64,000 bases of DNA from Bdellovibrionales bacterium RIFCSPHIGHO2_01_FULL_40_29 (lineage in GTDB: Bacteria > Bdellovibrionota > Bdellovibrionia > Bdellovibrionales > Bdellovibrionaceae), in contig MEPU01000004.1 of NCBI GenBank assembly GCA_001771815.1, forward strand, positions 248,001-312,000, in the 5' to 3' direction. How positions within the stretch are numbered: the first letter of the stretch is position 1; every line of letters starts with the position of its first letter. The notes beneath the pieces were generated by a model, which did no database searches, had not been told where the DNA came from, and worked only from the letters and a program-made list of their open reading frames with translations. The position numbers and the translations under genes were made by a program. Below are positions 24,780 to 53,507 of the stretch, in pieces.

Positions 24780-25817
24780 ATGAAAAATAAATTAGTTGTC
24801 TCTCTGATCGCACTTGCAAGCTTCGCCCTTTTCTCTAGCTGTGAAAAAGGTGGTGGAGATTTTTCAATCCTGTCTGAGTCCTCTCAGTTTCAACAGGCCT
24901 CGACGTTTGTGCCCCGCAAACTGGATGTTTTATTTGTTGTCGATAACTCAGGCTCTATGAGTTCATCACAAACCAACTTAGCAAATAATTTTCCATCATT
25001 TATTAATTATTTTAAATCCAAAGGGTATGACTTTCGAATTGCTGTCACCACAACAGATGCTTTCTACGGAGATCAGTTCGTGAGCAGTGGTTGTTCGCTT
25101 TGCAATATTTCACAAACTGAATTTCGAGGCACTCCGAAATTTGTCGACAACAACACGCCTGACTTAGAAGCCACTTTTGCTGCCAATGTTCAAGTGGGTA
25201 CAACTGGAGCTCCTGACGAGCGCGCTTTCTCAAGCTTTAAAGCTGCCCTGGGAAGTTCATTGAATGCGACCTTTCATCGACCCGATGCTTTTTTATCAGT
25301 GATTATTGTTTCTGATGAAGAAGATTTTTCACATGACGATATCAGCCAGAATGAGTCTTACTCTCAACCCACTTTGCATTCAGCGGCTTCGTACAAAACA
25401 TTTTTAGAAACATTCACTGCAGGACAAGCCACAAGCGATTTTTCTGTTTCAACAATTTCCATACTTGATGAAACGTGTCGAGCTTCACTGGGCTCGGGAC
25501 GAAAAATTGGAGTTCGCTATATGGAACTAGCCGACTTAACAGGGGGAACAAAGAATTCATTATGCACATCTTTTGCAACAATTTTGGATAATATCAGCAC
25601 CTCGATTGCAACACAAACTCAGGCACAGTTTCAGCTGAATAAAAAACCAGTCATCGAATCAATTCGCGTTATCATTGATGGAGTTCTTGTACCCGAAAGC
25701 ACGGTTGATGGTTGGTCTTATGATAGCGTTTCCAACAGCATTAAAATCAATGGTTCTACTTATCAACCATCAGCAGGCTCAAGCATCACTATTAACTTTG
25801 ATCCCGATATCACTTAA
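24780..25817 (+). CDS. VWA-domain lipoprotein
   Basis: Lipobox LFSSC; MIDAS-like DVLFVVDNSGSMSSSQ. Confidence 0.8.
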   Translation: MKNKLVVSLIALASFALFSSCEKGGGDFSILSESSQFQQASTFVPRKLDVLFVVDNSGSMSSSQTNLANNFPSFINYFKSKGYDFRIAVTTTDAFYGDQFVSSGCSLCNISQTEFRGTPKFVDNNTPDLEATFAANVQVGTTGAPDERAFSSFKAALGSSLNATFHRPDAFLSVIIVSDEEDFSHDDISQNESYSQPTLHSAASYKTFLETFTAGQATSDFSVSTISILDETCRASLGSGRKIGVRYMELADLTGGTKNSLCTSFATILDNISTSIATQTQAQFQLNKKPVIESIRVIIDGVLVPESTVDGWSYDSVSNSIKINGSTYQPSAGSSITINFDPDIT

Positions 25818-25837: not shown

Positions 25838-26398
25838 ATGTTACATCCCGAAAACGACTGGTTTGTCCTACTTGGTGATCAAAAGTTTGGACCTTACGAT
25901 TACAAAACAATGATCTCGATGATGCAAAAGCATGAGCTGATGGACTATAACTACGTCTGGGCAGCCCACCTGGACAGCTGGACTCCGGTCTATCAACTCG
26001 AGGAATTCAGCAAAGATCGATTTCAGATTCTTTTGCAGAAAGAATCTGAATACTTAAATACTTTTATCCAACGTAAATCGGCGCGCATCGAAGTTGATAT
26101 CCCTTTGATGGGTCATAATGGTATTCGTTTTTTTGATGGCAAGGTGACATCGCTCTCGGAACAAGGCGCACTTTGTATGATCAATACGCCACTTGTTCAA
26201 ATTGGTGATTTTCTGAAAATGCATTTCAAGACCAATGGTCCAGATGCTCTGTCTTTCAACACTGAAGCGGAAGTTATCCGAAAGAATTTTTCAAAACAGC
26301 GCTTGAATTCAAAATCTGGACTCTATTACGCGGTCCGCTTTAACGATATACAAACGGTAGGTCTTGAGCAGATTCAAAAATGGGTCTCTGCCGCATAA
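25838..26398 (+). CDS. GYF_2-like plus PilZ domain protein
   Basis: N-terminus DWFVLLGDQKFGPYDYKTMISMMQ...VWAAHLDSWTPVYQL resembles GYF_2/DUF4339. C-terminus has RxxxR (RKSAR) and SLSEQG in PilZ-motif positions. Confidence 0.72.
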   Translation: MLHPENDWFVLLGDQKFGPYDYKTMISMMQKHELMDYNYVWAAHLDSWTPVYQLEEFSKDRFQILLQKESEYLNTFIQRKSARIEVDIPLMGHNGIRFFDGKVTSLSEQGALCMINTPLVQIGDFLKMHFKTNGPDALSFNTEAEVIRKNFSKQRLNSKSGLYYAVRFNDIQTVGLEQIQKWVSAA

Positions 26399-26439
26399 CT
26401 TTTACTTTTAATTTAATAAAACCTTTTTAAGGAGGAAAT

Positions 26440-27153
26440 ATGGCATTTTTTAATTTCATGAATAATTCAGGTGTGGTTGGATGGACGATCCTCCTGACGG
26501 GTATCGCAGCGATCGCTTTAATCGTCGAGCGTGCACGTACACTTTACTTTGACTTCGGAATGAATGTCGATGAGTTCACAAATAAGATTCAAACACTGGT
26601 TCTTGGCAAAAAGAACGAAGAGGCTATTATTGCCTGCGCTCAATTAGAAAATAAACCATTGGCTCGAGCTTTCAAACTGATTCTTGAAAAATCAGATCGT
26701 GATGATGAGACGATTTTTCAGGCCCAAGACATCGCCATGGCAGAAACAGTTCCTATGTACACCAAACGTTTACATTACTTGTCGATGCTGGCTAACGTTT
26801 CCACCTTGTTAGGTCTGTTGGGTACGATCCATGGTTTGATCCTGTCGTTCCAAGCGGTGGCGCAAGCCGATCCCGCAGAAAAACAAGCCATGTTGGCATC
26901 TGGTATCGCGGTATCGATGTACACCACGGCACTGGGTCTTGCTGTTGCCATTCCGGCCATGGTGGCATTCTCATTTTTGACGTCACGACAAAATGAATTG
27001 CTTGAGCAAATGACAGAGAAATGTTCGAAACTGACAGAGATTTTAACAAGCAGCCATATTCCAGGCTTGAACAAGAATACTGTTTTTCCAGAAGTATCTC
27101 GTATGAATACCAACGGACCTACACCACCGTCAGTGAGTTCAAAAGTTTCTTAA
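26440..27153 (+). CDS. MotA/TolQ/ExbB proton channel family protein (AglR-like)
   Basis: LLGLLGTIHGLILSFQAVA...LASGIAVSMYTTALGLAVAIPAMVAFSFL. Confidence 0.9.
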   Translation: MAFFNFMNNSGVVGWTILLTGIAAIALIVERARTLYFDFGMNVDEFTNKIQTLVLGKKNEEAIIACAQLENKPLARAFKLILEKSDRDDETIFQAQDIAMAETVPMYTKRLHYLSMLANVSTLLGLLGTIHGLILSFQAVAQADPAEKQAMLASGIAVSMYTTALGLAVAIPAMVAFSFLTSRQNELLEQMTEKCSKLTEILTSSHIPGLNKNTVFPEVSRMNTNGPTPPSVSSKVS

Positions 27154-27182
27154 TTAAGATTTTTTCTTAAGGAGAAAAAATT

Positions 27183-27731
27183 ATGCGTAAGCGATTTAAA
27201 CCGTTACTCAACCACAACTCTGAATTCGCATTGGATTTGGCACCACTTTTAGCGGTGATGGTGAAGTTGGTACCAGTTCTTTTAGTCTCATCCGCATTTG
27301 TGCAGATGTTGATTATTGAAACGGAACTTCCTCAAGTGGTTCAGCAAGCAATCGAACAGCAAAACAAAGATCCAAAGGCAACCCAAGTTGCCGTTGAGGT
27401 CTCTCGCAAATTTGGTGTGAAATTTATTATCACTGAAAATGGCAAGCAAATGGTTGAAACAGTCGCTTTGACAACTGAAAAAGAACTGGATCTTCCTCGT
27501 CTGCATGCCAAGTTTCAAGAGATCAAAAAATCTCATCCCGAAATATTTAAAATTGAAATGAGTCCCGAAGAAGATGTTCCCTACAGTGATGTTGTTCGCG
27601 TGATGGATGAAGCACGCAAATCACGTAGCAACGATATCAAATTTCCCGTCAAGGACATGAAAACAGGACAAGATACATCCACTTTGTATATGTTTCCTGA
27701 AGTTGTCTTTGGCAACACGATGGATGGGTAG
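27183..27731 (+). CDS. ExbD/TolR-like protein 1 (TM Asp replaced by Ala)
   Basis: Single N-terminal TM (LAPLLAVMVKLVPVLLVSSAFVQMLII) with a periplasmic domain; between exbB-like and second exbD-like genes. Confidence 0.8.
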   Translation: MRKRFKPLLNHNSEFALDLAPLLAVMVKLVPVLLVSSAFVQMLIIETELPQVVQQAIEQQNKDPKATQVAVEVSRKFGVKFIITENGKQMVETVALTTEKELDLPRLHAKFQEIKKSHPEIFKIEMSPEEDVPYSDVVRVMDEARKSRSNDIKFPVKDMKTGQDTSTLYMFPEVVFGNTMDG

Positions 27732-27735
27732 CTAT

Positions 27736-28224
27736 ATGGCACGCAAAAGATTTATTCCTGAAATTAAAAAGAATCAAACATTTGGGCTTAATATCACCTC
27801 GATGACAGATATGTTCACCATCTTATTGGTGTTCTTACTGCAGTCCTTTGCTTCCGGTGAAATCAACCTTGATCCTGTTCAGGGTGTGCGCTTGCCGTCA
27901 TCATCAACTGAAAAAAATCTTGTTGATGGTGCTCGCATTTCAATATCGCCCACCGAACTTAAGTTTGATCAGTTGAAAGTGGCCGACGTTAAAGACAATA
28001 AAATTGCATCATCAGCTATTGATCCTAATGATTCTAATTTCATAAAACCACTCTTTGATGAATTGCAAAAATTCAACAAAGACAACGAGAAACTGGCCAA
28101 AACAGGAAAAGTTCTGTTTCAAGCCGATCGCGATACTCCGTACGCAACTTTACGAAAAGTGATGTACACGGCTTCTATGGCCGGATTCCCAAACCTTAAA
28201 CTGGTGACGACAGCAGGAAATTGA
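27736..28224 (+). CDS. ExbD/TolR-like protein 2 (TM Asp retained)
   Basis: FGLNITSMTDMFTILLVFLLQSFA TM and YATLRKVMYTASMAGFPNLKLV C-terminus. Confidence 0.87.
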   Translation: MARKRFIPEIKKNQTFGLNITSMTDMFTILLVFLLQSFASGEINLDPVQGVRLPSSSTEKNLVDGARISISPTELKFDQLKVADVKDNKIASSAIDPNDSNFIKPLFDELQKFNKDNEKLAKTGKVLFQADRDTPYATLRKVMYTASMAGFPNLKLVTTAGN

Positions 28225-28225
28225 T

Positions 28226-31200
28226 ATGACTATAAAAACACGGATGCTTTTACTACTAACCGCTTTGACTTCAACACCGACGCTTGCTTTGCAAGAGAAC
28301 ACCAAAGGACTACTTCCTGAAGTGCGCTTGAACTCAACAAATGAAGATAAAAACACAGAAACAGCTTATCAATCTGAGTTGATGATCACCAAAGCTGAAA
28401 ATAAAGCCATTGATTCTTTGACACGAATTATTTCAAAGAAAAAAGGCAACCCCGAAGAAGCAGATCTTTTATTTCGTCTGGCCGAGCTGTATATGCGTCG
28501 AGCCAAATCCGGACGTTTCTTTGATCTTAATCAGAATATTAAAATCACAAAATCCAATGTGATCCAACAGAAAGCCCAAGTCTCTTTAAAAAGCGCCATT
28601 GGTATTTATAACCGTATCGAAAATGAATTCCCAAAATACAAAGACTTAGACGCTGTTTTTTTTAATAATGCTTTAGCACATCAACAAACACGACAAATAG
28701 AACGCGCCAAAGATCTATACAACCGCCTGACCCGAGAATTTCCGAAATCAAGCTTGGTTCCGGATGGTTTACTTGAAGTCGGTGAAATCTACTACAATCA
28801 GCAAAACTTTACTGTCGCTTTAGAAAAATTCAAAGCCATTGAAAAGTATCCTAAATCAAAAGCTTATCCTTATGGAATTTACAAATCCGCTTGGTGTCAT
28901 TACAACTTAAAAAATACGGATGATGGCATCAAGCAGTTGCTTGCTGTTGTTCGACAAAATCAAGCAGATGCTACTGATCCCAAAAAATACAATCTTCGCA
29001 AAGAAGCTCTGCGCGATTTAACATTATTTGTTGGCGAAACAATGCCACCAGATGATTTGTATACATTCTTCGAAAAGATCACAACTGCGGACGAACTGGG
29101 CGACACAATGATGGGTCTTGCCAGTCTGTATGAGTCCCACTCTCGTCATAAAGAAATCAGTTTATTTGTTAAAGAATTTATAGAGAAACATCCTGATAGT
29201 CCTCATGCTCCAAAGTTTTTCGCAAAACTCATTGATAATAGCGAAACTTTAAAACAGCGTGACACTGTTATTTCCTATTTAAATAAAATGTCTGAATCAT
29301 GTAAGTTACAAATCAATTCTGAGTGCAATAGTATTTTTCGCCGAGCCAGTCTGGATATTTCAAAAAAATGGTGGGATATCTGGCTTAAGAATAAGAAAAA
29401 CACAGAGTTTTCCCATTTAACCGAACAGGCCTTTGAAATTTTGCTTTCAAACGATGATCTTGCAAAACCAGATTCAAAATCCCGTTATGCCTATGCTGAA
29501 TTACTTTTTCAACAAGACAAATTTGATAAAGCCAGTGATAACTATGAGTTGGTCTCTCATCACAAAGGGATTGATAAAACATTGGGACATGATGCTCTAT
29601 ATGGCGCCCTTTTCTCGATTGAAAAAGCTCTTGATAAAAAAGATGACGCTGTCCTGACTGAAAAACAGAAATCATTGGCCGAGCGTTATCTCAAAGAATA
29701 TCCAAACGGAGAGCATGGCACATCTATTCAGTACAAATTGGGTTTTATTTTTTACAAACAGCAAGATTTTGATACGGCAGTTAAATACTTTACCCCACTG
29801 ACGACCAAGACCAAGTATCCTGAAATCAAAATGAAATCTGAAGATTTGATTTTGGATATCTACAATATTAAAAAAGATTACAAATCCATTCAGTCATTTG
29901 CAAAAAATGTCCTGAAAACAACTGATGCTGCTGCACGGAAGCAAACATTAACAAAGATTCTAGAAGAAGCTCATTATGCTCAAATCCAAGTGGATGCGGC
30001 GGATCTGCCAGTTGAAAAGCGCATCGATCAGTTGCGTTCGTTTGCATCACAACACAATGTCTCTAAATTGGGACAGGATGCTTTTTGGCAATCGATCAGC
30101 TTGGCCTACTCGAATGGTTTTGATGTTCAAGGGGCTGATATGAGCCTGGATTACATCAAGCAGTACCCAAATGATTCAAAAAAATTGGACTCGATGAAAG
30201 AAGCCACAAAAGCATTTATTGATGCCGGTCAAATCAAAAAAGGAATTATCACAGTTCGTGAATTGGCCCGTCTTGATCCAAAAAATAGCATGAAACATTT
30301 AGAAATGTCTTGCGACTTGCTACGTATCAACAACCAACTGCCCGAAGCTCGTGGATGTTACAAAGGATTATTTGGCATAACGGATAAATCTAAAAAACCT
30401 GAGCTGTTGTCAAAAATGGTGAAAACTTTTAAAGAAGGCACACAATCTCCTGAGCTGGAATCTCTTGAGAATCAAATACTCAGGGAAAATATCGAACCCT
30501 ATGCCACCCGCTTGTTGATTTCAAAAGCGAATGCTCTTTTGGAAAATAACAAAATGACTGAAGCTTTTAATCTGTCACTTAAAATAAACTCGCGCCCTGT
30601 TGATGCGGATATTCGAGCTGAAGCCCGCTTGATTCAGGCCGAAGTCCTCGAGAAAGAATTTTTTGCTCAAAGCGTGAAAGCCCGTGAAAATAAATTTGCC
30701 ATGGTCTTGTCGATGAAAACAGAAAAAATGGATAAGGCCTACACCGCTTATTCAACGACCATCAAAATGTCCAAGACCGATCGAATTCAGGCGCGTGCGC
30801 TGCAAGGTATCGATCGCCTCTATGCCCACTATGTTGAATCGATCACCAATATGCCAATCCCGGGATCGCTCACCGCTGAAGAACAAAAAGGACTTCGCGC
30901 TGAATTGGTTAAACTAACAGAACCGTTCTTAGTTAAAAAGACCGAGAATCTGGCTCGCCTTCGTAAAATATCATCACTGTCCGCGGCAGATTCGCAATCC
31001 ATCAACTGGAGCGAGTTTAGTCCTGAAAAAACAATTGAACCTCGCGTGCAGTTTCCGTCTGCTCAGAAGCTATCCCATTTTATTCCATCAAAATTTGAAA
31101 TTGATTCCAATGGTTATTCCCGCCTTCCAGCCAGCGAGAAAAAATGTGATGCCAAAGCAGCTCCCACAGCAGAAGTCCTGGGTGGATGCATCCAAAGTAA

Positions 31201-31858
31201 AAAATTTACTGAAGCCGAGACCTTGGCCTTCAAGTTATCGAGCATAAAAGAAACTCGTGCAACAGGACTCTACTACCTCAGCGTGCTTGCCGACAAGCAA
31301 GCTGAGTATGAGAAAGCACTTTGGCTGATTGAAAAGGCAATGGTCTTGGATCCAGAAAATTCAATGATCAATTATCAAAAAGGAAAAGTGCTTTATTCTG
31401 TCGAAGGAATCAACAGTGCATTACCTTATTTTGAAAAAGTTTTGGACATGAAAAAAACATCACCAGAACTCGCGATCATGAATGCCTTGAAGTCGTTCTC
31501 GGATCGAGACTATATCACGGCGACAGAAGAATTTTCTAGATTAACCACTGACGAGCTTTATAATTATAGTCTAGTTGAACTTTATGTTGAAGCCACAGCC
31601 CAGAAAGGCGAAGCGGAGGAAGCTCTGAAATTATCTTCAAAATTTCTCAATTCGAAACCGGATAATGTCGATATGTGGATTGAGCAGGCTCGTGTTTTTG
31701 AGATATTTGTCATGAATCCTAACAGTGCCATGAACAGTTATCAAAAGGCATTGGCCAAATCAGTAAAAACTGATCAAAAAGATTGGTTGAAGAAGAAAAT
31801 TGAATTTTTAAAAACGAATAAAAACAGTCAAATAACGTCGTACGTAGGTGGGAATTAA
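28226..31858 (+). CDS. Large TPR-repeat exported protein (Glt-like)
   Basis: 1210 aa; signal peptide; repeated TPR-like helices (FRLAELYMRRAKSGR, YKLGFIFYKQQDFDTAVKYF). Confidence 0.8.
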   Translation: MTIKTRMLLLLTALTSTPTLALQENTKGLLPEVRLNSTNEDKNTETAYQSELMITKAENKAIDSLTRIISKKKGNPEEADLLFRLAELYMRRAKSGRFFDLNQNIKITKSNVIQQKAQVSLKSAIGIYNRIENEFPKYKDLDAVFFNNALAHQQTRQIERAKDLYNRLTREFPKSSLVPDGLLEVGEIYYNQQNFTVALEKFKAIEKYPKSKAYPYGIYKSAWCHYNLKNTDDGIKQLLAVVRQNQADATDPKKYNLRKEALRDLTLFVGETMPPDDLYTFFEKITTADELGDTMMGLASLYESHSRHKEISLFVKEFIEKHPDSPHAPKFFAKLIDNSETLKQRDTVISYLNKMSESCKLQINSECNSIFRRASLDISKKWWDIWLKNKKNTEFSHLTEQAFEILLSNDDLAKPDSKSRYAYAELLFQQDKFDKASDNYELVSHHKGIDKTLGHDALYGALFSIEKALDKKDDAVLTEKQKSLAERYLKEYPNGEHGTSIQYKLGFIFYKQQDFDTAVKYFTPLTTKTKYPEIKMKSEDLILDIYNIKKDYKSIQSFAKNVLKTTDAAARKQTLTKILEEAHYAQIQVDAADLPVEKRIDQLRSFASQHNVSKLGQDAFWQSISLAYSNGFDVQGADMSLDYIKQYPNDSKKLDSMKEATKAFIDAGQIKKGIITVRELARLDPKNSMKHLEMSCDLLRINNQLPEARGCYKGLFGITDKSKKPELLSKMVKTFKEGTQSPELESLENQILRENIEPYATRLLISKANALLENNKMTEAFNLSLKINSRPVDADIRAEARLIQAEVLEKEFFAQSVKARENKFAMVLSMKTEKMDKAYTAYSTTIKMSKTDRIQARALQGIDRLYAHYVESITNMPIPGSLTAEEQKGLRAELVKLTEPFLVKKTENLARLRKISSLSAADSQSINWSEFSPEKTIEPRVQFPSAQKLSHFIPSKFEIDSNGYSRLPASEKKCDAKAAPTAEVLGGCIQSKKFTEAETLAFKLSSIKETRATGLYYLSVLADKQAEYEKALWLIEKAMVLDPENSMINYQKGKVLYSVEGINSALPYFEKVLDMKKTSPELAIMNALKSFSDRDYITATEEFSRLTTDELYNYSLVELYVEATAQKGEAEEALKLSSKFLNSKPDNVDMWIEQARVFEIFVMNPNSAMNSYQKALAKSVKTDQKDWLKKKIEFLKTNKNSQITSYVGGN

Positions 31859-31887
31859 AATGGACTGCAAATTAATAAGGGACACTC

Positions 31888-32157
31888 ATGAAAACGCAGA
31901 GAATACAGACGACGTTAGCAGCTGCTGCACTATTTTTTCTAGGTACATTCCTAGTCATCCAGCCTGCTTTCGCCAAAAAAACTGAGGTTCGGAAAGTTCA
32001 AGAAGTGAATTTTTCTGAAATGAATCTGAAGGGTACAATTCGTAACCCTGATGGCGCATATCTGGTACAAAAGAAAGGGCTTAAATTTATGCCCCTTCAT
32101 GATGTGCAAAAAGATATGGACGCAAAGATTCGCGAAACATCATTGTACATAGACTAA
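31888..32157 (+). CDS. Small exported hypothetical protein
   Basis: 89 aa, clear signal peptide (AAALFFLGTFLVIQPAFAKK), co-directional in the operon. Confidence 0.6.
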   Translation: MKTQRIQTTLAAAALFFLGTFLVIQPAFAKKTEVRKVQEVNFSEMNLKGTIRNPDGAYLVQKKGLKFMPLHDVQKDMDAKIRETSLYID

Positions 32158-32176
32158 ATTGGAAGCAGAGGGACGT

Positions 32177-33601
32177 ATGTCAGTACTTATATTTAAACAA
32201 GTGACCGAATCGGGAAACAGTAAAGTTTTCAGAATTGATTCAAAATCAACAGCGAAAACCTTTGGCTGTTCGCGAAAAGCCAATCTGATTTCTATTGATC
32301 CGCTTTCCGACAAATTCGATGGGGTTTTCGAGCATCGCGAAGATGGATGGCATTATGTCTCATTTGATATTAAAAATAAAACTCCTGATCTTAAAATCAA
32401 AATGGATGACTCGTTTCAACTTGCAAACTCGAAGTTGCATTTTTTCGTGCATGAAACGAAGGAACATCTTTATGACGATTTCTCAAGACTTAACACTGTG
32501 GGTACTGCTGAAAGACAGGTTTATGTTGTCAGTCGTAACAATCGCATTTTAGAAACAAAAGTTCTTCCTAAAAATACAGGTTTTTCTTTTGCGATTCATG
32601 GCAAACAGAATCTTTTCAAAATCAATGCAACAACAGATTGGATCAGCGAATTGCATGATGGTTTTGAAATCAAATCAAAGTTGATTCAAGTCGATCCCCT
32701 TTCACACTTGAATCAGACACAAAATGTGGGTCTTTCTCAAAAAGAAAAACGCACCGTTGCGGCGACAATGGCTCTTTGCTTATTATTGGTTTTCACGGCT
32801 TTCGTTATACCGAATGAAACTCCTCTTGTTGCTGAAAAAGAATTGCCAAAAGCAGCCATGAATGTGGTCTTTAAAACAGACAAAAAAGTCAGACAAGCTC
32901 AGCAGAAAAAAGTTCAAGCGCAAAAAGCTCCGGCCCAAGCCAATAAAGAAGTTGGCGGTTCAGCTGGGGGTGGTCGCGTTTCAGCATTGCTCAAAGGGGC
33001 CGTTGGCGTCCGAATTTCTCAATTGATTGGTAAAGTTTCTGCGACAGATGCTCGAACAGCAAATGTTCTGGTAACAACCGGAGCCAAAGCTGGCGAAGGG
33101 GCTTCTGGTCGAGCACTGGCGGCAGTTGGTAAAGTGGAAGCTTCGGGCCGAAATTGGAATGGAGAATCTGCAGGTTCTGGAACTGGTGTATCTACTGCCG
33201 GTATCGGTGGTGGTAAAGGCACAAAAGGTTTAGGCGGCGGTCTTGGTCAAGGTAAAACAGGATCTGGTGGCGTGGGTTTGATCGAAGAAGAATCTGAAGT
33301 GATTGGTGGATTAGACCGCGAAATCATTGCTCAGTATATTAAAACACAATTAGGACAAATTCTTTATTGCTACGAACGTCAGTTATCAGCAAATCCTGAC
33401 TTGTATGGAAAAGTTGCTGTGAAATTTACTATCAGCGGCAATGGACAAGTTGAAACACAATCTATTAACGACACAACTCTCAAAAGTGTTCCCGTTGAAG
33501 GATGCATCCTGAGTAAGGTTGCCAAATGGAAATTTCCAGAGCCTCGCGGTGGAACAAAAGTGTTAGTGACCTACCCGTTTTTATTTAAGAGTACGAATTA
33601 A
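32177..33601 (+). CDS. FHA-like N-terminus, single TM, Gly-rich linker, AgmX/PglI-type C-terminal (TonB-like) domain protein (GltG-like)
   Basis: TM TVAATMALCLLLVFTAFVIP; C-terminus REIIAQYIKTQLGQILYCYERQLSANPDLYGKVAVKFTISGNGQV...VAKWKFPEPRGGTKVLVTYPFLF. Confidence 0.82.
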   Translation: MSVLIFKQVTESGNSKVFRIDSKSTAKTFGCSRKANLISIDPLSDKFDGVFEHREDGWHYVSFDIKNKTPDLKIKMDDSFQLANSKLHFFVHETKEHLYDDFSRLNTVGTAERQVYVVSRNNRILETKVLPKNTGFSFAIHGKQNLFKINATTDWISELHDGFEIKSKLIQVDPLSHLNQTQNVGLSQKEKRTVAATMALCLLLVFTAFVIPNETPLVAEKELPKAAMNVVFKTDKKVRQAQQKKVQAQKAPAQANKEVGGSAGGGRVSALLKGAVGVRISQLIGKVSATDARTANVLVTTGAKAGEGASGRALAAVGKVEASGRNWNGESAGSGTGVSTAGIGGGKGTKGLGGGLGQGKTGSGGVGLIEEESEVIGGLDREIIAQYIKTQLGQILYCYERQLSANPDLYGKVAVKFTISGNGQVETQSINDTTLKSVPVEGCILSKVAKWKFPEPRGGTKVLVTYPFLFKSTN

Positions 33602-33645
33602 GGATGAAAACCAGCCGCTACGATGGCAGAATAGGATTATCGAAG

Positions 33646-34461
33646 ATGAAATTTACGAATTTAACAACAACAGTCTTTCTGATACTGGCATTAGCCTTCC
33701 CGGCAGTAGCCCAGGAAAAGAAAGTGGAGGCAAGTACTCCCGCTTCCAAAGGCACCTCTGACAAAATGGATTTAAAAAAATTAGAAGACAAGTACTGGTC
33801 ATCAAAAGATGATGACTATGGTGTTATTCAAAATAGGACATTTGCAAAAACAGGGCGAATTTATGGATCCGCTGTTTATGGTCCATTAATCAATGACCCG
33901 TTTGCCAAAGGCCGCGCTGCAGGAGCCATGATAGGCTATTATTTGAACGAAGATTTTGGAGTTGAATTCAGTTATCTCAGCTATAGCACAAGCAAAAATG
34001 ACACTGTTGCTGAGTATGAAAGTTTACAAAATCCTGCATTTATGGTTTCTCCTAATTATAACTTAGTCAAAGCCACAAAAGCACTTTCACTGACTTACAC
34101 CCCGTTTTACGCAAAAATGGCTTTTATGAATAAAGCGATCATGTATTTTGATATGGGCTTTACTTTAGGAGCTGGTTTAACAGATTACGAGCAACAAAAA
34201 ATTTCAAAAGATGGCGGCGGAGTCAAAACTCAAACAAATGAAATGGCCTCTTCTCCGCATTTTGAAATTGGTGTCATGCAACAGTTATTTTTGAACCAAT
34301 CTTTTGCATTTCGCCTGGATATTAAAAACTCGTTTTACACACAAACTGTAAAACAATATGAAATTGGAAATGCCGCATTGGAATCAACTCGAAGTGAAAC
34401 TTCGAAAAGCATCAATGACACGACAATCACATTTGGTCTGACAGTTTTTTTCACAAAGTAA
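33646..34461 (+). CDS. Outer membrane beta-barrel protein of a motility/envelope complex
   Basis: Signal peptide MKFTNLTTTVFLILALAFPAVAQ; alternating barrel strands; C-terminal aromatic strand TITFGLTVFFTK. Confidence 0.75.
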   Translation: MKFTNLTTTVFLILALAFPAVAQEKKVEASTPASKGTSDKMDLKKLEDKYWSSKDDDYGVIQNRTFAKTGRIYGSAVYGPLINDPFAKGRAAGAMIGYYLNEDFGVEFSYLSYSTSKNDTVAEYESLQNPAFMVSPNYNLVKATKALSLTYTPFYAKMAFMNKAIMYFDMGFTLGAGLTDYEQQKISKDGGGVKTQTNEMASSPHFEIGVMQQLFLNQSFAFRLDIKNSFYTQTVKQYEIGNAALESTRSETSKSINDTTITFGLTVFFTK

Positions 34462-34484
34462 GGGTGAAGTAAATATGAAAAGAA

Positions 34485-36590
34485 ATGAAACTTAACAAAA
34501 ATGATATTATCAAGACCGTCTTACTGACTACTGTCTTTGTCCTTGCCACCCCTCAATGGGTGATGGCTGAAGGCATCCTTACGACCAAGTCCGCTGGTCG
34601 AAAACCAACCTCAGATGTCAAGTACCGTCAATCAGGAGTTCCTGTTTTTGATTTAGTTCAAAAGAAAGGCTCTGAAGTTATTAAGATTAAAAATATTCCT
34701 AAATTAGATATCGGCGAAGAAAAAGAAATCGAAGCTGCTGATTCTGATTTGAATTTACCCGCAAGTCGCGAATTCAAAGCCATGACAGCACAACCCCGAG
34801 TCTCCCCGCCGTTACTTAAAATTCCTCAGACAGCGTTGCTACCTGTGCAACAGACTCGCAAACTGGCAAGTGAATTCAATATTGAAAAAATTCCAACAGT
34901 TAAACAACTGGATATCGTTCCAGAGCCGCTAGTCGTCACCTCTGAAGTGGCTCTTCAGAATTTAGTCGAAATCAAACCTGACGAGTACAAAATGCTTCAG
35001 GCGCTTATTTTCTTGGAATATCAAAAGAAATATGACTTGGCGATGAGCCTTTTTGTTGAGTTGATGGATACCAAAGAATTTCGTTCACAGGCTTTGTATC
35101 ATTATGCTCTGACAGCGTATGGACTTGGTTTGTATTCTGAATTTCGCCATAAAATGATTCAGGTCAGTCAGGAAACAAAAGACCTGCATCTTAAAAAAAT
35201 GGCGGTTGAGCAATTGGCTAAGAATGTTGGAACACTTGAAAATTCGGACATCGCCTTGATTGATCCTTTGGTGGAATCATTTGATATTGATATCACTTCA
35301 AACGAAAAGTACCTTCTTCGCCGAGCAAAGTATTTTTCTGAAAAAGGTGATTTGGGACAACTTGAAAATTCATTGATTTTCATTTCTGAGAAATCTCCGC
35401 TTTATCCTGAGGCTTCATTATTAAAAGCGATCTTTAACTACCGCCAAGGGAAAGTGGATATGGCCATTGCCGATTTAGAAAACTCATGGCCTATTATTGA
35501 AGATAAAAAACGTGATCAAGTTCGAAACTTAACGGCGCTGACATTGGCCCGTCTGTATTTCCAAAAGGGAGACTACAAATCATCTTATAAAACGTACCTC
35601 AAGATCGATAAATCTAGCCCCTCATGGTTGCAAGCCATGGTGGAGCAAGCTTGGACGCAAATCTTGGCCGGAGATAACGAAGGCGCCGCTGGAAATATGT
35701 TTTCGATGCACACTGATTTTTTTCGAAAAGCCTATGCTCCCGATACCTATATTGTTCGAACAGTCGGTTACTTGAATCTTTGTCAGTTTGGTGATGGCGT
35801 CAATGTCTTGAACGATCTTAAAAAGCGTTACAGCTCTATCCAAGAACGTTTGGAAGCTTATCAAAAAACAAGCAAAGAACCTGTTCGCTATTATGAACTG
35901 GTCAAAACATGGTTGCGCAATACCAATGTTGATGAAGTTGATGGCTTGCCACGAGCATTCATTGTTGAACTGGCCCGCCATCCTCATTTCACTTCTGTAC
36001 AAAAACAAATCAACAACTACGAAGATGAGAACTTAAAGTTCAATAAAATCGCCATTGATTTGATTCGTAAAGAACGCGAAGCCCGTTTGAAAATGCTGCA
36101 AGCCAAAAACGAATTTTTAGCTCTGAAGCGAAAAGGTGTTACAGACAGCAGTCTTCAGAAAAAGGAAAAAGAATTTTTAGCTGTTGGCGTTGAACACATG
36201 ATTATCAGTCGTGCTCGCGAAGGCATCAAAAAAATGCGCCTGTCGGCGATCGCTCGCTTAGATAAAGAAAAAGATTCGTTGCGCTTAAAAGCCGCGAAGA
36301 ATCTGCAGGGACGATTCGATACTTTCGTGGCTTCTCTTGGCAACTTGGTTGACCAGAATGAAGTGCTTTCTTATGAAATCTATTCAGGAGCCGGTGAACA
36401 CATCCGCTTCCAAATGGCTGGCGGAGAAATCAATAAGCGCGAATCGGCATCGTTAGCTCCGGACGAAAAAGAAAGCTACAAATGGAAATTTAAAGGCGAA
36501 GTTTGGGAAGACGAACTGGGCCACTATCGATCATCACTTAAAAACGTCTGCCCAGCAGATGACATTGCACAAGTACAAGGGAGCAACTAA
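34485..36590 (+). CDS. TPR-containing exported protein (Glt-like)
   Basis: 701 aa, signal peptide, helical repeats (ALARLYFQKGDYKSSYKTYLKIDKSSPSWLQAMVEQAWTQILAGDNEGA). Confidence 0.7.
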   Translation: MKLNKNDIIKTVLLTTVFVLATPQWVMAEGILTTKSAGRKPTSDVKYRQSGVPVFDLVQKKGSEVIKIKNIPKLDIGEEKEIEAADSDLNLPASREFKAMTAQPRVSPPLLKIPQTALLPVQQTRKLASEFNIEKIPTVKQLDIVPEPLVVTSEVALQNLVEIKPDEYKMLQALIFLEYQKKYDLAMSLFVELMDTKEFRSQALYHYALTAYGLGLYSEFRHKMIQVSQETKDLHLKKMAVEQLAKNVGTLENSDIALIDPLVESFDIDITSNEKYLLRRAKYFSEKGDLGQLENSLIFISEKSPLYPEASLLKAIFNYRQGKVDMAIADLENSWPIIEDKKRDQVRNLTALTLARLYFQKGDYKSSYKTYLKIDKSSPSWLQAMVEQAWTQILAGDNEGAAGNMFSMHTDFFRKAYAPDTYIVRTVGYLNLCQFGDGVNVLNDLKKRYSSIQERLEAYQKTSKEPVRYYELVKTWLRNTNVDEVDGLPRAFIVELARHPHFTSVQKQINNYEDENLKFNKIAIDLIRKEREARLKMLQAKNEFLALKRKGVTDSSLQKKEKEFLAVGVEHMIISRAREGIKKMRLSAIARLDKEKDSLRLKAAKNLQGRFDTFVASLGNLVDQNEVLSYEIYSGAGEHIRFQMAGGEINKRESASLAPDEKESYKWKFKGEVWEDELGHYRSSLKNVCPADDIAQVQGSN

Positions 36591-37228
36591 TGAAAAATTT
36601 AACACTGATCACCATCACCGCACTATCTTTAAATGTATTTGCCGAGCCTATGGCCGCGCGAGATGGTTTGGAAAAAATCAAAACCAATGTTGAAAATGCA
36701 AAATCGAATCAAAAAGAATACGATCGCAACCTAGAAGTGGTTAAAAAAAATATTGCCGAAATCAATAAAGCCAAGTCTACATTTTTGAAACAAAAAGAAG
36801 TCGTTTCAACAGAGATCGTCAAAAACAATGATTCTTTAAAGAAGGTCATGGTTCAAGAGCGTGATCTGAATATTTTGATGACTCAAGAGAAAGAAAAACT
36901 TCAAACAGAAACAAAGCAGTTGGAGCAGTTAGAAAAAATGATCGCGCAAATTAAAATGAATCAAGTTCAGCGCGAAGCCAATATTGCTGAATACCAGAAC
37001 CAATTGCGTTCAACAACGGACGAGAAAAAAGCCTGGAAAGATCGCGAATCTGAATTGCGCGCTCAAGAATCAAAAACAATTCAAGCCGTGCGTACAATTG
37101 CCAACGAAGAGTCAACTTGGTCTAATAAAAAGAAAGGTTACGAAGGCGAACTCAAGCGCTGGAGTGCTGAAGCTGAAAAACAGCAAAAAATCCAAGCCAC
37201 TTACCAGGGCTTAGCTGAACAAAACTAA
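36590..37228 (+). CDS. Exported coiled-coil protein
   Basis: Signal peptide followed by about 190 aa of heptad-rich sequence; start overlaps upstream stop (TAATG). Confidence 0.7.
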   Translation: MKNLTLITITALSLNVFAEPMAARDGLEKIKTNVENAKSNQKEYDRNLEVVKKNIAEINKAKSTFLKQKEVVSTEIVKNNDSLKKVMVQERDLNILMTQEKEKLQTETKQLEQLEKMIAQIKMNQVQREANIAEYQNQLRSTTDEKKAWKDRESELRAQESKTIQAVRTIANEESTWSNKKKGYEGELKRWSAEAEKQQKIQATYQGLAEQN

Positions 37229-46404: not shown

Positions 46405-47628
46405 ATGAAAGTTTTTTTTAATTTACTTTTATTAGCTTCTGCCATCCTAGGTTGCGAATCAAAAGATGATTTGCACTCGTTTCAAAATTCATCACCTCAA
46501 TATAACATTATCAATGGTGCACTTTTAGTTGATACCCAACTTCCGCAAATGTCGCAAATTACAATTGGCCAGACAAATTGTTCGGCCACCTTAGTCGGCC
46601 CCAATGTCATTCTTACGGCGGCTCATTGTATTGGAGAATTTCCGGAGCAATTATTTGGCCCGGTTAACGGAGCTTTTTACAAAGTTAAATTAACTCTTAA
46701 TCCAAAGTACAATGAAACCCATGAAACCTACGATGATAATAGTTTGGCACTGGCTTCGGACGCAGCTATTGGTATCTTGGAAAAAGAAATTCCAAATATA
46801 ATCCCCGCCACCATTTCTCATAAAAATCCATCGATTAACGATCCCATTTTGATGGCGGGATGTGGCGCCCCGACTGAGGGAATAAGACAATTTGGTTTTT
46901 CACGTGTTAACAAACAAGGATCAACAGGGTTTACTCTTTCTGATTCCAACTCGATGCAAATAATAAATCATGGTGATTCTGGCGGCCCGAGCTTTATGGT
47001 GAACGAAAAGAATGAATTATCGCTTTTCGCCGTCAATTCAACCAGTGATTTTTCATATGCTCAAGGCGTTTCCAGCGTGGTGAACACACCCGAAAACGAC
47101 AATGCCATTTTTATTAATCAATTTATCTCTAAAAATAATTTGAAAGTTTGCGGGATCAATCTTAAATGCGGAACCATCAGCCTTATTCCGAAAGGCCTAG
47201 GTTACAGCACTTCTCTTTTGGTCAGTATTGATGGTGTCCAAACCGAGATTTCAAACAAAACACAAGTCAGTCGTAATACCATATTAAAATCATCCGTAAA
47301 AGGTGACATGGTTTTTGCTCAACTGGGAAAAGTGGACGATTTTACCAATCTTGATGTCAAAGGCAAAATGGTGCTGATCGCTCGTGGAGAAATTGCATTT
47401 TTGGATAAAATGAAAAATGCCAAAAAGGCCGGGGCTGTTGGTATAATTATATTTAACACATCCGATGATGATATCAACGCGAGTTTAGATGAGGCATCAG
47501 ACTTTCCCATCCTGGTCATTAATAATACCGCCGGCCAATCTTTAGTGAGCTCGTTAACGGCGGGCGCTAAAATCTCGGTCGAATTTAAAGTGACCTCTCA
47601 GATATATACGTTTGATAAAAAAAATTAA
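46405..47628 (+). CDS. Trypsin-like serine protease lipoprotein with C-terminal PA domain
   Basis: Lipobox AILGC; LTAAHC, SDAAIG, HGDSGGPSF triad. C-terminus DVKGKMVLIARGEIAFLDKMKNAKKAGAVGIIIFN is PA-like. Confidence 0.87.
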   Translation: MKVFFNLLLLASAILGCESKDDLHSFQNSSPQYNIINGALLVDTQLPQMSQITIGQTNCSATLVGPNVILTAAHCIGEFPEQLFGPVNGAFYKVKLTLNPKYNETHETYDDNSLALASDAAIGILEKEIPNIIPATISHKNPSINDPILMAGCGAPTEGIRQFGFSRVNKQGSTGFTLSDSNSMQIINHGDSGGPSFMVNEKNELSLFAVNSTSDFSYAQGVSSVVNTPENDNAIFINQFISKNNLKVCGINLKCGTISLIPKGLGYSTSLLVSIDGVQTEISNKTQVSRNTILKSSVKGDMVFAQLGKVDDFTNLDVKGKMVLIARGEIAFLDKMKNAKKAGAVGIIIFNTSDDDINASLDEASDFPILVINNTAGQSLVSSLTAGAKISVEFKVTSQIYTFDKKN

Positions 47629-47648
47629 AATGAAGCGTGCTCACATGG

Positions 47649-48284
47649 CTACTGTTTCCACCCCAGGGCTTTTGAAACTGCAGGCAATTGCTCAATAAAT
47701 ATTTCGCGGCACTTTTCGGCGATTGCTCGATGCTCCATTTGCGTCGCCGCATTTGTGCGAAGCTCGATGTAGTGGATCCAACTTCGAATCGTACCATTCA
47801 TATAGATTTTGGTAGCAGCACTTAGCGGTAAAAGGCTTCTTGCGCACTCTTTAGCAATGCCTTTCTCAAGTGCTTCTGAATATTTCTGAAAAGAAAAATC
47901 CCAAACTTGCTGTTGAGTTGTCTCGAACCAACCTTGAGTCACTTGGTCAAAGTCATCAATCGAGTTCTGACGATTTTTATGATCTTGCCGCCGAGCACGT
48001 GTCAGCATAAAATCATCAGCCTTTGCGTATCTTTGGGAAAATTCCTGAAATGAAAACGAGCGATGCCTTAAAATCTGAGGAGCTATGGCGCGAGACGTTT
48101 GAACTTCTAAAACCATATTAGCTTGTTCAAAGACCGACCAGTGACCATGCTTCGCACAGTAACCCAAGAGCCCGCTAACATCAGGATTGTCCTGATTCTT
48201 TGGATTGCTGACCCTGGCACAATAAGCCATAACTTCTTCTGCTTTTGGCGTAATCGCAATTAAACAAACCTCTTCTTTAACCAT
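47649..48284 (-). CDS. thyX: FAD-dependent thymidylate synthase
   Basis: [15 protein letters not shown] (RHRxxSxxxxSxR ThyX motif). Confidence 0.93.
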
Positions 48285-48383
48285 TTCGAACTCCTTTGCT
48301 TTCAAAACCAATTTTAAGCAAATCAATCCAAAATGTAAGGAATATGATTTCATATTTATCATTCTTTAAGTTATACAATTAAA

Positions 48384-49262
48384 ATGGAACAAATACCGAT
48401 TCACCTTCTAAATGCATTTATGGTTTTCAATGATTCACAAAATATAACGAAGGCTGCCGAAATTCTTGGTATTACGCAACCAGCGCTTTCAAAACAATTG
48501 AAGGCCTTAGAAGCAAAATTCCCGCAACCCATTTTTTCGACTCAGGGGCGGCGAAAAATCCTGACGTTTTTTGGACGGGATCTTCAGAATCGAATTAAAG
48601 GTCAAATTGGCAACATTCAGGAGAGCATTCAAGAAAGTCTTCTTCTTCATTCTGACATGAAACAAGTCAAAATTCGAGTTTCGGGACGCCAAGGAGTTTT
48701 GGATCGAATCTCTAAGAAACTCGAATTTCAGGGGACATTAATTTTCAATGAGTCTTCAAATCAGCAAGTCATTGATGATTTGCTTTGCATGAGAGCCGAG
48801 ATTGGAATTGCCCATGATTTTCCAAATAGTTTCAATCTTGTCGCAAAGCCACTTTTCAAAGAAGAGTTCAAGCTTGTGATCCCTAAAAAATTTCTTTTAA
48901 AATCAAAAAAATATGGAAAATCACTTTTCGAAGAATTAAAGCTGAGTCCATGCATTGGCTTTAAGGCCGAGGACGAAATCTTGAATCAGCTGTGCACTGA
49001 TAATTCTATATCAAAATCTCAGTTGCAAATGAGCCGAATCACTTCAAATTATTCCAGTGTTGCAAAAATGGTCGATGCCGGATTTGGGTGGGCGGTTATT
49101 CCTTCCTATCTTGAAGTCGACTTAAAAAGGAACTGGAGCATTCCAGTTCCTCTCGAAGTTTTGACATCACGAAAATTTTCTATTCTCTATCGCCATGAAT
49201 TTTCAAAAACCCCCTGGTTCAACGACATTATCAAAGAAATTAAGGGCATTTTTGGGAGTTGA
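48384..49262 (+). CDS. LysR-family transcriptional regulator
   Basis: N-terminal HTH: HLLNAFMVFNDSQNITKAAEILGITQPALSKQLKALE. Confidence 0.9.
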   Translation: MEQIPIHLLNAFMVFNDSQNITKAAEILGITQPALSKQLKALEAKFPQPIFSTQGRRKILTFFGRDLQNRIKGQIGNIQESIQESLLLHSDMKQVKIRVSGRQGVLDRISKKLEFQGTLIFNESSNQQVIDDLLCMRAEIGIAHDFPNSFNLVAKPLFKEEFKLVIPKKFLLKSKKYGKSLFEELKLSPCIGFKAEDEILNQLCTDNSISKSQLQMSRITSNYSSVAKMVDAGFGWAVIPSYLEVDLKRNWSIPVPLEVLTSRKFSILYRHEFSKTPWFNDIIKEIKGIFGS

Positions 49263-49427
49263 AGTCGCGAACTATGGTTTTCCAACTTAGGGATTTTTCC
49301 ACTATTTTTTTTAACCATAAAGACTCCTTTATATTGGAAACTTGTTCAGTTACTTCTAGTGAATAGCGCTTAATCGAATTCACTGATTCTTAAATTTAAT
49401 AATACCAGTAAATTCAAATACTTATAC

Positions 49428-49469
49428 CAAGTAAGTCAAGTTTTTACATACTAAAACTTGACTTACTTG
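49428..49469. promoter_or_regulatory. 17-bp perfect inverted repeat upstream of AbiE-like operon, putative antitoxin operator
   Basis: CAAGTAAGTCAAGTTTT - tacatact - AAAACTTGACTTACTTG, 33 bp before the antitoxin start. Confidence 0.7.
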
Positions 49470-49502
49470 AGCAAGTAACCGATACTGATACAGAGGTTAC
49501 AG

Positions 49503-50222
49503 GTGAATATTGCAAAGCACATTAGAATACAAATAGATAAGGGCAGCAGTGGGCAATTGTGGACCTATAAAGACTTCCATAACCTACCCGTCATCCCAGT
49601 AGCGAAAGCTTTAAGTCGCCTAGCAAAGCAAGGTGTTTTGCTACGCGTGCGAAAAGGAATTTATTTTAAACCTAAAAAAACCGTGCTGGGATCAACAGCG
49701 GCTGACCCTTTATTAGTTGCCAATGCAGTACTTAGTCATAAAAAGAAAGCCCACACCTACGCCGGAGGCACCGGCGCCTTCTACAATGCCAGACTAACAA
49801 CTCAAGTCCCCGCCACTGCCGCCATCATAAGTGATGTGCCCCATCGCCACCTCAAGATTGGCAATACAGACATTCAGGTTGTATATAGAAAATTATCCCA
49901 CATGAAAGATGCAAGCCTTAATGATGTATCCCTGGTTCTGTCATTACGTGCTATTAATAAAATACCGGATACATCAGCCTCAGATGCAGTTTTAAAAATA
50001 CTTAATATGCTGGGGACAGATAGAGATCGCTTAGATAGAGTTGTCGGATTTGCCAGCTATGAGCCTCCGCGAGTGAAGGCTTTAGTTGGAGCAATGGCAC
50101 AACAACTAAAGTATAAAGGCGATAAGCTTGCTAAATTAAAGAAATCTCTTAATCCTCTAACAAAATACAAGTTGCAAATTAGTCATGTTTTGCCAACTGC
50201 GCCCGACTGGAATATCCTCTAA
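49503..50222 (+). CDS. DUF6088/AbiEi-like type IV toxin-antitoxin antitoxin
   Basis: N-terminal winged-helix (WTYKDFHNLPVIPVAKALSRLAKQGVLLRVRKGIYFKPKKT); paired with an AbiEii-like gene. Confidence 0.85.
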   Translation: MNIAKHIRIQIDKGSSGQLWTYKDFHNLPVIPVAKALSRLAKQGVLLRVRKGIYFKPKKTVLGSTAADPLLVANAVLSHKKKAHTYAGGTGAFYNARLTTQVPATAAIISDVPHRHLKIGNTDIQVVYRKLSHMKDASLNDVSLVLSLRAINKIPDTSASDAVLKILNMLGTDRDRLDRVVGFASYEPPRVKALVGAMAQQLKYKGDKLAKLKKSLNPLTKYKLQISHVLPTAPDWNIL

Positions 50223-50224
50223 CG

Positions 50225-51142
50225 ATGTTTTTATCAGAGCATCCTGATTTTAAAGATTTGATCGGCCAAGTCGCTCGCAATATGGGCGTTAGTAACGCTA
50301 TCGTTGAAAAGGATTATTGGGTTACTCTTGCGCTTTACCACTTAGCCCATTCTGAATTTAAAGATGAGTTTATTTTTAAAGGCGGAACCAGCTTATCAAA
50401 GGCATTTAAATTAATTAAACGCTTCTCTGAAGACGTGGATCTACTTTTTATTGATATTGGAAAGAGAAAACGTACACGCCTTAAAAAAGTTAGAGATTTT
50501 ATATCTTCACAAGGCTTTTCATATTTTGAGGGCACTGAGCACGAAAACACTAGTAGTAACGAAAGCCGCACGTCTTGTTTTGATTATAAAAAAAATTATG
50601 CCGACTCACTTGGCGGCATATTACCATTTGTTAAATTGGAAATGGGCTACAGGGGTGGGCAAACTCCGAACACATTGATACCCATAACTTCCTACCTAGC
50701 AGAAGCAATGCTTGCCGGCGGCGAAGCATCTGCATATTTTGATCTAATGCCTTTTGAAGTTAAAGTACTTGCCCCAGAGAGAACACTTGTTGAAAAGTTA
50801 TTTGCGTTACATTCAGCATTTGAAAAAGGTGAAATTGAAAAAAGAGTACGTCATTACTATGACGCATATCACTTATTGGGCTTACCCGACGTGATAAAGT
50901 TTTTAGGAACGGCGGACTATAAAATCTTAAAACAAGATGTTTATGATTTTTCTGTGGCTTGTTTTCCAAACTCACCTATACCCGCTGTTGAAAAATTACA
51001 TGAAAGTAAATCACTGTCGCCAGATCATGACAGCCTCAAAAGAATTAGAACAGCCCACGAAGGCTCGGATCTTATTTTTGGCGACAAGCCAACAGTTGAA
51101 GAAATGTTTGATCGTATTTCAAAATACCTAAGTAAAATATAA
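50225..51142 (+). CDS. AbiEii-like nucleotidyltransferase toxin
   Basis: FIFKGGTSLSKAFKLIKRFSEDVDLLF nucleotidyltransferase motif; 2 nt between stop and start. Confidence 0.9.
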   Translation: MFLSEHPDFKDLIGQVARNMGVSNAIVEKDYWVTLALYHLAHSEFKDEFIFKGGTSLSKAFKLIKRFSEDVDLLFIDIGKRKRTRLKKVRDFISSQGFSYFEGTEHENTSSNESRTSCFDYKKNYADSLGGILPFVKLEMGYRGGQTPNTLIPITSYLAEAMLAGGEASAYFDLMPFEVKVLAPERTLVEKLFALHSAFEKGEIEKRVRHYYDAYHLLGLPDVIKFLGTADYKILKQDVYDFSVACFPNSPIPAVEKLHESKSLSPDHDSLKRIRTAHEGSDLIFGDKPTVEEMFDRISKYLSKI

Positions 51143-51189
51143 GCTCAATTCTTCGTGGCAGCAGGTCTTTTGTTAGCTACAATACGCAA

Positions 51190-52185
51190 CTACCGCGACA
51201 CCGCTAAAACTAGGCTACCCAATTTATGTCTTGATTCAACTATTCTATGTGCCTCTACGATTTTATCGAATGGAAGCGTAGTTCCTATTAAAGGACGAAA
51301 TTTTTTTTGTTTACAAAGAGACAATAGAAACTGCAGATCATTTTCATTCTCACTGATCGAGCCAGAAAAAACTTTTTGTGATTGAGTTAATGATATCCAA
51401 ATATTTCTTAAAGTTGTTGGCAAGTCAGCAACGACAAGTCCCAATCTGCCCTTTGCAGTCAACTTATGTTTAATTTTTTCAAATGTAATAGTTCCTACAG
51501 TATCAAGTATCACATCATATTTGTCCATTTCCGTTAGCCATGATCGCTCTCTATAATCAATGACATCTTTGATACCCAATTCGGTGACAGCTGAAACTTT
51601 TTCTGTACTGCATACTGCTGTGACATGGGCGCCCATCAATTGACCCAGTTGAATAGCAGAACTACCTACCGCCCCACCAGCGCCAATTACAAGGAGGCGC
51701 TCGCTTTTCTTTAGTTTGACTTTATCTCGTAAAAAAATAAGAGCTGTTACACCGCCAAATACTAACGCCACGGCCTGTTCATAACTGATATCTATTGGAA
51801 TTTTAGCTGTTGCGCTGTTTTCATTAAGCAGTCGATATTGTGCATGGCCACCGAGTTTCATACCCAAGTTAGAAACAACACGATCTCCGGTTTGAAACTT
51901 ACTTACCCCTTCTCCCAAAGCTACAACTTCACCAGCCAGATCAGTGCCTAATGCCTCATACTTGGGATGTTTGAATCCAAACAGTAACCCCATAATGATT
52001 CCATAGCCCTTCGGAACATTTTTGCTACGAAGTCTCCAGTCACCAGTAGACACGGTAGTCGCATGTATCCGAACTAGCATTTGACCCTTTTTTGGAATAG
52101 GGATTGGGGCTTCTTCAATAGAAACAACATCAGGCGAACCAAAAATACGATTTCGAGCTATAAGCATTACTTGGGGCGTTCTCAT
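51190..52185 (-). CDS. NAD(P)-dependent alcohol dehydrogenase / quinone oxidoreductase-like MDR protein
   Basis: ATTVSTGDWRLRSK, LGTDLAGEVVALGEGVSKFQTGDRV, VIGAGGAVGSSAIQLGQLMG. Confidence 0.9.
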   Translation of the reverse strand: MRTPQVMLIARNRIFGSPDVVSIEEAPIPIPKKGQMLVRIHATTVSTGDWRLRSKNVPKGYGIIMGLLFGFKHPKYEALGTDLAGEVVALGEGVSKFQTGDRVVSNLGMKLGGHAQYRLLNENSATAKIPIDISYEQAVALVFGGVTALIFLRDKVKLKKSERLLVIGAGGAVGSSAIQLGQLMGAHVTAVCSTEKVSAVTELGIKDVIDYRERSWLTEMDKYDVILDTVGTITFEKIKHKLTAKGRLGLVVADLPTTLRNIWISLTQSQKVFSGSISENENDLQFLLSLCKQKKFRPLIGTTLPFDKIVEAHRIVESRHKLGSLVLAVSR

Positions 52186-52303
52186 TTTTTATGTCCTTTT
52201 AAAATATTGAATGGTGCTCTTCTAAATACATAAATTTTAATAGGGATAACCAATGAATATCGACATGTTATTCATTATGGCGCGCCATAGCGTGGACTAT
52301 TAC

Positions 52304-52348
52304 CTGATGAAACTCGATCGCAAGTTCTAATTTTCTGAATGTTTTCAT
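52304..52348 (-). pseudogene. Truncated remnant of a four-helix-bundle gene
   Basis: Reverse-strand MKTFRKLELAIEFHQ matches MKKFRTLELAIEFHQ of the intact gene at 45191-45541, then diverges and stops. Confidence 0.75.
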
Positions 52349-52439
52349 ATTCATCATACATACGCCGATCCATGTTTGAATCGCCCCCACCCCGAACAAA
52401 AAGTTTGCGCCCGCTCACCACCTGCTATAAAATTTTTCG

Positions 52440-53042: not shown

Positions 53043-53059
53043 ATTCAGGAGTTTTTAAA

Positions 53060-53419: not shown

Positions 53420-53458
53420 GTCGATCCCCCTTTATTTAGCCCATCACAGGATGGTTGC

Positions 53459-53497
53459 TAATATGGTATGATGGACTTAACAACCTATACCATATTA
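53459..53497. promoter_or_regulatory. 11-bp perfect inverted repeat upstream of YdeI-like gene
   Basis: TAATATGGTAT - 17 nt - ATACCATATTA, ending 10 nt before the ATG at 53508. Confidence 0.55.
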
Positions 53498-53507
53498 AGA
53501 AATTTAC

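Follow-up and report, generated by a model that had tools for sequence, protein, structure and literature searches.

The operon analysed here lies in a 64,000-nucleotide stretch (hereafter the window) of Bdellovibrionales bacterium RIFCSPHIGHO2_01_FULL_40_29, contig MEPU01000004.1, and its products resemble those of the envelope-spanning Glt machines of Myxococcus. A preliminary description of this DNA had outlined positions 25838-37228 as one co-directional run, and this is borne out: all ten of its open reading frames (ORFs) are found on the + strand exactly where they had been placed, closely packed with intergenic gaps of 1-41 bases. The range itself is right for these ten genes, however it starts one gene late, leaving out a MIDAS/vWA lipoprotein gene which is separated from the GYF-PilZ gene by 20 bases and stands first in an operon of 11 genes (Table 1). 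The domain calls made then are confirmed by the profiles GYF_2, PilZ, MotA_ExbB, ExbD (twice), TPR, myxo_SS_tail (6.5e-32) and OMP_myx_plus. On the whole, the same 11 genes stand in identical order in 16 other genomes of the family, and given this the gene set is far beyond chance. The operon is flanked by MazG and YbeY upstream and by the convergent MurJ downstream; better starts are probable for ExbD2 (ATG 27736) and GltG (ATG 32177) and may exist for the barrel (33646).

Table 1. Genes of the operon and the acid site of ExbD1, in window coordinates
Feature	Position	Strand	Profile support
MIDAS/vWA-domain lipoprotein, putative surface adhesin, Bd1483-type (gene 1)	24780..25817	+	MIDASAdhsBdello, CglD profiles
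GYF_2 + PilZ protein, Bd1482-type	25838..26398	+	Pfam
ExbB/AglR-type motor ring subunit, Bd1481-type	26440..27153	+	MotA_ExbB 1.5e-25
ExbD1, AglQ position, bd1480-type, motor axle subunit	27183..27731	+	ExbD 3.4e-18
ExbD1 relocated acid: Asp18 27234-27236; canonical position = Ala24 27252-27254	27234..27254	+	
ExbD2, AglS position, Bd1479-type by position; canonical Asp 27808-27810; ORF open from TTG 27703	27736..28224	+	ExbD 1e-15
GltD-GltE fusion (as aligned), exported TPR protein, 1210 aa	28226..31858	+	
GltF (CglF) homologue, exported, 89 aa	31888..32157	+	NF033764 1.9e-4, below cut-off
GltG	32177..33601	+	NF033760 9.9e-39, NF033768 6.5e-32
Outer-membrane beta-barrel, GltA/GltB type	33604..34461	+	TIGR04565 OMP_myx_plus 2e-23, over cut-off
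GltC homologue, exported TPR protein, 701 aa	34485..36590	+	NF033756 5e-35, below cut-off
Exported coiled-coil protein, Bd1473-type by position	36590..37228	+	

On sequence evidence the parts and their kinship are apparent. The Glt/Nfs-type core of AglR, AglQ, AglS, GltC, GltD, GltE and GltG is complete and linked (7 of 7), with GltD and GltE fused. The fusion, as judged from profile alignments, is the 1210-aa TPR protein, since GltD and GltE, where encoded by two ORFs (in Myxococcus and in other families), match positions ~6-960 and ~980-1213 of its model, respectively; in the order's other families the two genes are unfused, with products of 986-1017 aa (GltD) and 304-308 aa (GltE). These separate GltE proteins have lipobox-like N-termini, whereas GltE as an internal domain of the fusion leaves no possibility of a lipid anchor. 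GltG is laid out as an eroded FHA domain, one membrane helix, a Gly-rich linker and a TonB-like AgmX/PglI C-terminus, and NF033760 covers its C-terminal half only. That the N-terminus is an eroded FHA is indicated by profile comparison: Pfam FHA passes in one of 21 orthologues (2.5e-13), and the remaining N-termini align by profile to this one (E 2e-11). With full GltG profiles hhalign aligned the C-terminus only, and the N-terminus tested alone matches the FHA of true GltG with probability 90 and E 1.9e-7. The curated equivalog cut-offs of NCBIfam are missed for GltC (121 of 450 bits), GltG (133 of 650) and CglF (21 of 90); these define the Myxococcus gliding proteins and not the wider family, and with such scores the window proteins are homologues, not equivalogs.

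Two small parts had been regarded as lacking an assignment and possibly lineage-specific. For the 89-aa protein this does not hold: besides its match to CglF, its family hidden Markov model (HMM) finds Myxococcus GltF at 2e-9 and NfsF at 3e-6, CglF and GltF are two names of one protein (PMC4488436), and MXAN_4868 has the same length of 89 aa (PMC3169522). For the terminal coiled-coil protein it holds so far as tested. Its periodicity is that of a coiled coil (power 2.51 at period 3.5 versus 0.5 at 3.6). The protein is conserved among the 23 sequences aligned and occurs in further families of the order; no convincing family match was obtained and no counterpart was found in the other Glt sets examined. 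The head lipoprotein matches the NCBIfam models MIDASAdhsBdello (8.2e-17) and CglD (2.9e-11), both under the curated cut-offs; it has a lipobox-like N-terminus, ALFSSC, and its DNSGSM motif and SDE.D are invariant or nearly so across the family. The GYF-PilZ protein is matched by GYF_2 (1.3e-9) and PilZ (1.5e-9), the arginines R79 and R83 of the PilZ RxxxR motif are invariant in 14 sequences, and its GYF profile matches the GYF structure 7z3c of M. xanthus AgmX/GltJ (E 2.4e-4). This protein is a probable cyclic-dinucleotide-responsive cytoplasmic adaptor. In four order-level relatives (L061, L062, L066, L067) the GYF-PilZ protein has an additional GYF-like repeat at its N-terminus, and its gene and the vWA gene have exchanged places.

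ExbB and ExbD match the TolQ and TolR models, as all such motors do, and a Tol-Pal or TonB nutrient-uptake system was one alternative by which the preliminary description would have been overturned. Profile searches make it very improbable, with scores far under the cut-offs (TolQ 69.5 of 221 bits, ExbB 46.2 of 206.2). The operon holds no TonB-dependent receptor, TolB or Pal, but does hold GltC, GltD-E, GltF and GltG. Moreover, in an ExbB tree rooted on TolQ/ExbB rows, among them the TolQ-like and ExbB-like proteins of the same genome, the window motor is split from these rows with support 100/100. In this tree the window-type motors form a clade distinct from AglR and from the motor type of contig C6, on which the genome has another Glt-like set; they group with the Myxococcus M2-type motor (support 92/90) via a long branch. 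The clade may thus belong with the M. xanthus M2 motor, and the motor nearest to AglRQS, which was picked out of the Myxococcus genome on the basis of published lengths, 245 and 162 aa, is not that of the window. The GltD and GltC trees left the Myxococcus rows unresolved.

The most unusual feature of the motor is in ExbD1. ExbD, TolR, AglQ and AglS have a single Asp in the membrane helix. Alignments of the window ExbD1 place Ala24 at the canonical site (position 0) and Asp18 six residues upstream (position -6). Comparison was made with relatives which we take to be HD100, Tiberius, P. exovorus JSS and Ca. B. qaytius, and which are called so below. The ExbD1 sequences examined in the family have D at -6 and A, S or G at 0, including HD100 bd1480 'aglQ'; other families of the order have either the moved form or the usual one (D at 0, N/S at -6), the latter being also the form of almost every other Glt motor. 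Among about 100 sequences, with a few duplicates, D is found only at -6 in 57, only at 0 in 45, at neither in one and at both in none. The sequence with Asp at neither site is L269 (G057:C73), and a further case, with Asp at -6 and Ser at 0, is L267 (G043:C16); both lie in paralogous sets, and these motors are possibly an independent case of the same change. Asp is present in both ExbDs of AglRQS, as reported for AglQ and AglS (PMC9389320), and likewise of M2, the C6 set and the other three Tiberius sets. The site switches number 5 on a 59-row tree and 2 on a wider tree; with so few the sign test is powerless, so that the mutual exclusion of -6 and 0 is striking but statistically unproven, and proof of an Asp exchange was not reached. 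In ExbD2 the canonical Asp is present in 59 of the 59 sequences checked, which implies that any working axle contains ExbD2. A lysine at window 27264-27266, four residues past the lost Asp and inside the ExbD1 membrane helix, occurs in every sequence of the family that was checked and does not occur in other families.

As far as we could find, an ExbD1 lacking the canonical Asp but having one at -6 is new. Tentatively, the Glt motor of Bdellovibrionales could have an asymmetric ExbD axle, where one helix would have the canonical Asp and the acid of the other would lie about 1.5 helical turns towards the cytoplasm, with a stepping or gating cycle unlike that of MotAB, TolQR or AglRQS. It is also conceivable, at a rather low probability, that the working axle is made of an ExbD2 homodimer, with ExbD1 outside the pore in a regulatory or structural role, an arrangement compatible with either machine role considered below. 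The canonical Asp, missing from ExbD1 and always present in ExbD2, speaks for such a homodimer. However, an acidic residue is retained in the ExbD1 helix close to its cytoplasmic end, and the window-type motor is never without Asp at one of the two sites, suggesting a role in the pore; in addition, M. xanthus AglQ and AglS are both predicted to form proton channels with AglR (PMC9389320).

Based on the homology of the components, the conserved linkage of the 11 genes, the nearly order-wide presence of the motor (116 of 141 genomes) and its separation from Tol/Exb, we consider, with a probability of roughly 0.6, that the operon encodes one trans-envelope, proton-driven force machine of the Glt family which pulls the cell over surfaces. 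From these data we infer the direction of force, the contacts between partners, the composition of the axle and the role in gliding. The ExbB ring would surround an axle including ExbD2, turned by proton flow, and ExbD1 would most likely pair with ExbD2 in an asymmetric axle. By way of its one membrane helix and its TonB-like tail, GltG would transmit the stroke to the periplasmic GltD-E, GltF and GltC; these would be joined to the outer-membrane barrel and would engage or move the surface MIDAS lipoprotein, so that the cell is pulled across surfaces, biofilm or spent prey. GYF-PilZ, on the cytoplasmic side, would let cyclic dinucleotides control how the machine is assembled or how active it is. 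Published expression data and mutants make gliding plausible: bd1480 is up on surfaces and low in a mutant of the cGAMP enzyme Bd0367 (PMC9140294), insertions in Bd1481 and Bd1483 weaken predation on biofilm (PMC2277423), and Bd1482 was proposed as the PilZ effector of DgcA for gliding (PMC3271064). An interaction of AglR with GltG is reported in M. xanthus (PMC3169522), and MglA is present in the genome.

Several points weigh against this machine as the gliding engine. In the literature searched we found no gliding assay of a strain from which this operon had been cleanly deleted, and deletion of bd1483 leaves invasion normal (PMC11003981). GltH, GltI, GltJ and GltK are not seen in the operon, and a genome-wide scan, made for the AgmX-type tail only, gave no clear GltJ. 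An ExbD2 homodimer would fit the data as well as the proposed heterodimer axle with one canonical Asp. Furthermore, by profile scores the C6 set, of the Bd0828-0838 type, is the closer relative of Agl-Glt: against the Myxococcus models it reaches 9e-59 for GltG over the full length, 3e-53 for GltC and 3e-11 for CglF, while the window set reaches 9.9e-39 (C-terminal only), 5e-35 and 1.9e-4. Within this genome the C6 set is probably the genuine counterpart of Agl-Glt. Thus the likeness to Agl-Glt and Nfs which had been proposed stands for a Glt/Nfs-type envelope machine but not for the closest Agl-Glt counterpart, the window set being of the Bd1473-1483 type. The related clusters, including those of Bdellovibrio, are indeed described by Luciano et al. 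(2011), as had been stated; the same paper places Bd0828-0838 nearest AglRQS and reports GltH, GltI, GltJ and GltK absent from Bdellovibrio (PMC3169522).

From this a different division of labour may be drawn, in which gliding is driven by the C6 set, whereas the operon of the window, as a specialised paralogue, serves to move or display surface material, be it the MIDAS adhesin or something else, in the way that Nfs moves the spore coat in Myxococcus. We regard this as possible though rather unlikely. Besides the better model scores and the published placement, it is favoured by the abolished prey attachment of a Bd0838 insertion (PMC6561027) and by the possible grouping of the window motor with M. 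xanthus M2, whose deletion leaves motility unaffected. Against it, the motor gene reported as surface-induced is bd1480 and not one of the Bd0828 set (PMC9140294), and the defect of the Bd1481 and Bd1483 mutants is seen mostly when the biofilm is thick, a setting in which gliding would count (PMC2277423).

The sets differ in composition as well. The window operon shares with M. xanthus Agl-Glt an ExbB, two ExbDs, a GltA/B barrel and homologues of GltC, GltD, GltE, GltF and GltG, but forms one operon with a linked adhesin gene, has GltD fused to GltE, FHA eroded and ExbD1 without the canonical Asp, lacks visible GltH/I/J/K, and has its GYF fused to PilZ rather than in GltJ. The GltC-G homologues of the Myxococcus Nfs-like locus match the window HMMs, and the Nfs-like stretch read is without motor genes, unlike the window operon. 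M2, the nearest Myxococcus motor in the ExbB tree, differs by Asp in both ExbDs. The Bd0828-0838 type (in C6 and in the presumed P. exovorus genome) also has GltC, D, E, F, G, a barrel, ExbB and two ExbDs, but with separate GltD and lipoprotein GltE, a true FHA in GltG and Asp in both ExbDs, and with no vWA, GYF-PilZ or coiled-coil gene within the stretch read. In C6 this set (L073, ~46,800-57,000) includes a barrel, GltC, GltD, lipoprotein GltE, GltF, FHA-GltG, ExbB and two ExbDs, directly upstream of LptC/LptB/RpoN-like genes. Two further short ORFs of this genome with an AgmX/PglI C-terminal domain, L009 (C4:6487-6756) and L010 (C12:95804-96076), lie away from any ExbB found.

By gene order, the window operon appears to be the Bd1483-Bd1473 operon of B. 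bacteriovorus HD100. In the presumed HD100 genome the operon has the same order on the minus strand, with 10 of the 11 genes within the stretch read, and this order fits the Bd1483 MIDAS lipoprotein, Bd1482 PilZ, Bd1481 aglR, bd1480 aglQ and on to Bd1473. Genes, order and the monophyletic motor all agree with this type: the MIDAS adhesin is first, GYF-PilZ second, the ExbD1 Asp shift is the same, and sequence divergence is the sole difference between the two operons. Bdellovibrio has four Glt-like sets, compared with two in the window genome. The 116 of 141 genomes mentioned above were counted by window-type ExbD1; the best ExbB matches outside the order reach at most 150 bits, compared with at least 157 bits for nearly all genomes within it, and some families have the motor genes separated from the other operon genes. 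In the presumed P. exovorus JSS genome 10 of the 11 operon genes are lost, while GYF-PilZ is intact (50% identity) between MurJ and MazG, which suggests a further use of GYF-PilZ or a recent loss. This orphan is at L310 16897-17454, and the gap is filled by three unrelated genes, dioxygenase-like, YceI-like and LysR-like, recognised by eye. We considered whether losing the operon marks an epibiotic predator and rejected the idea, because the presumed Ca. B. qaytius, also epibiotic, keeps it.

Nearly every part of this conserved candidate machine is now assigned, and a MIDAS adhesin and a PilZ input are linked to it, in a genome having just two candidate Glt sets. The moved Asp of ExbD1 bears on the question, posed for Myxococcus (PMC9389320), whether AglQ and AglS form hetero- or homodimers.

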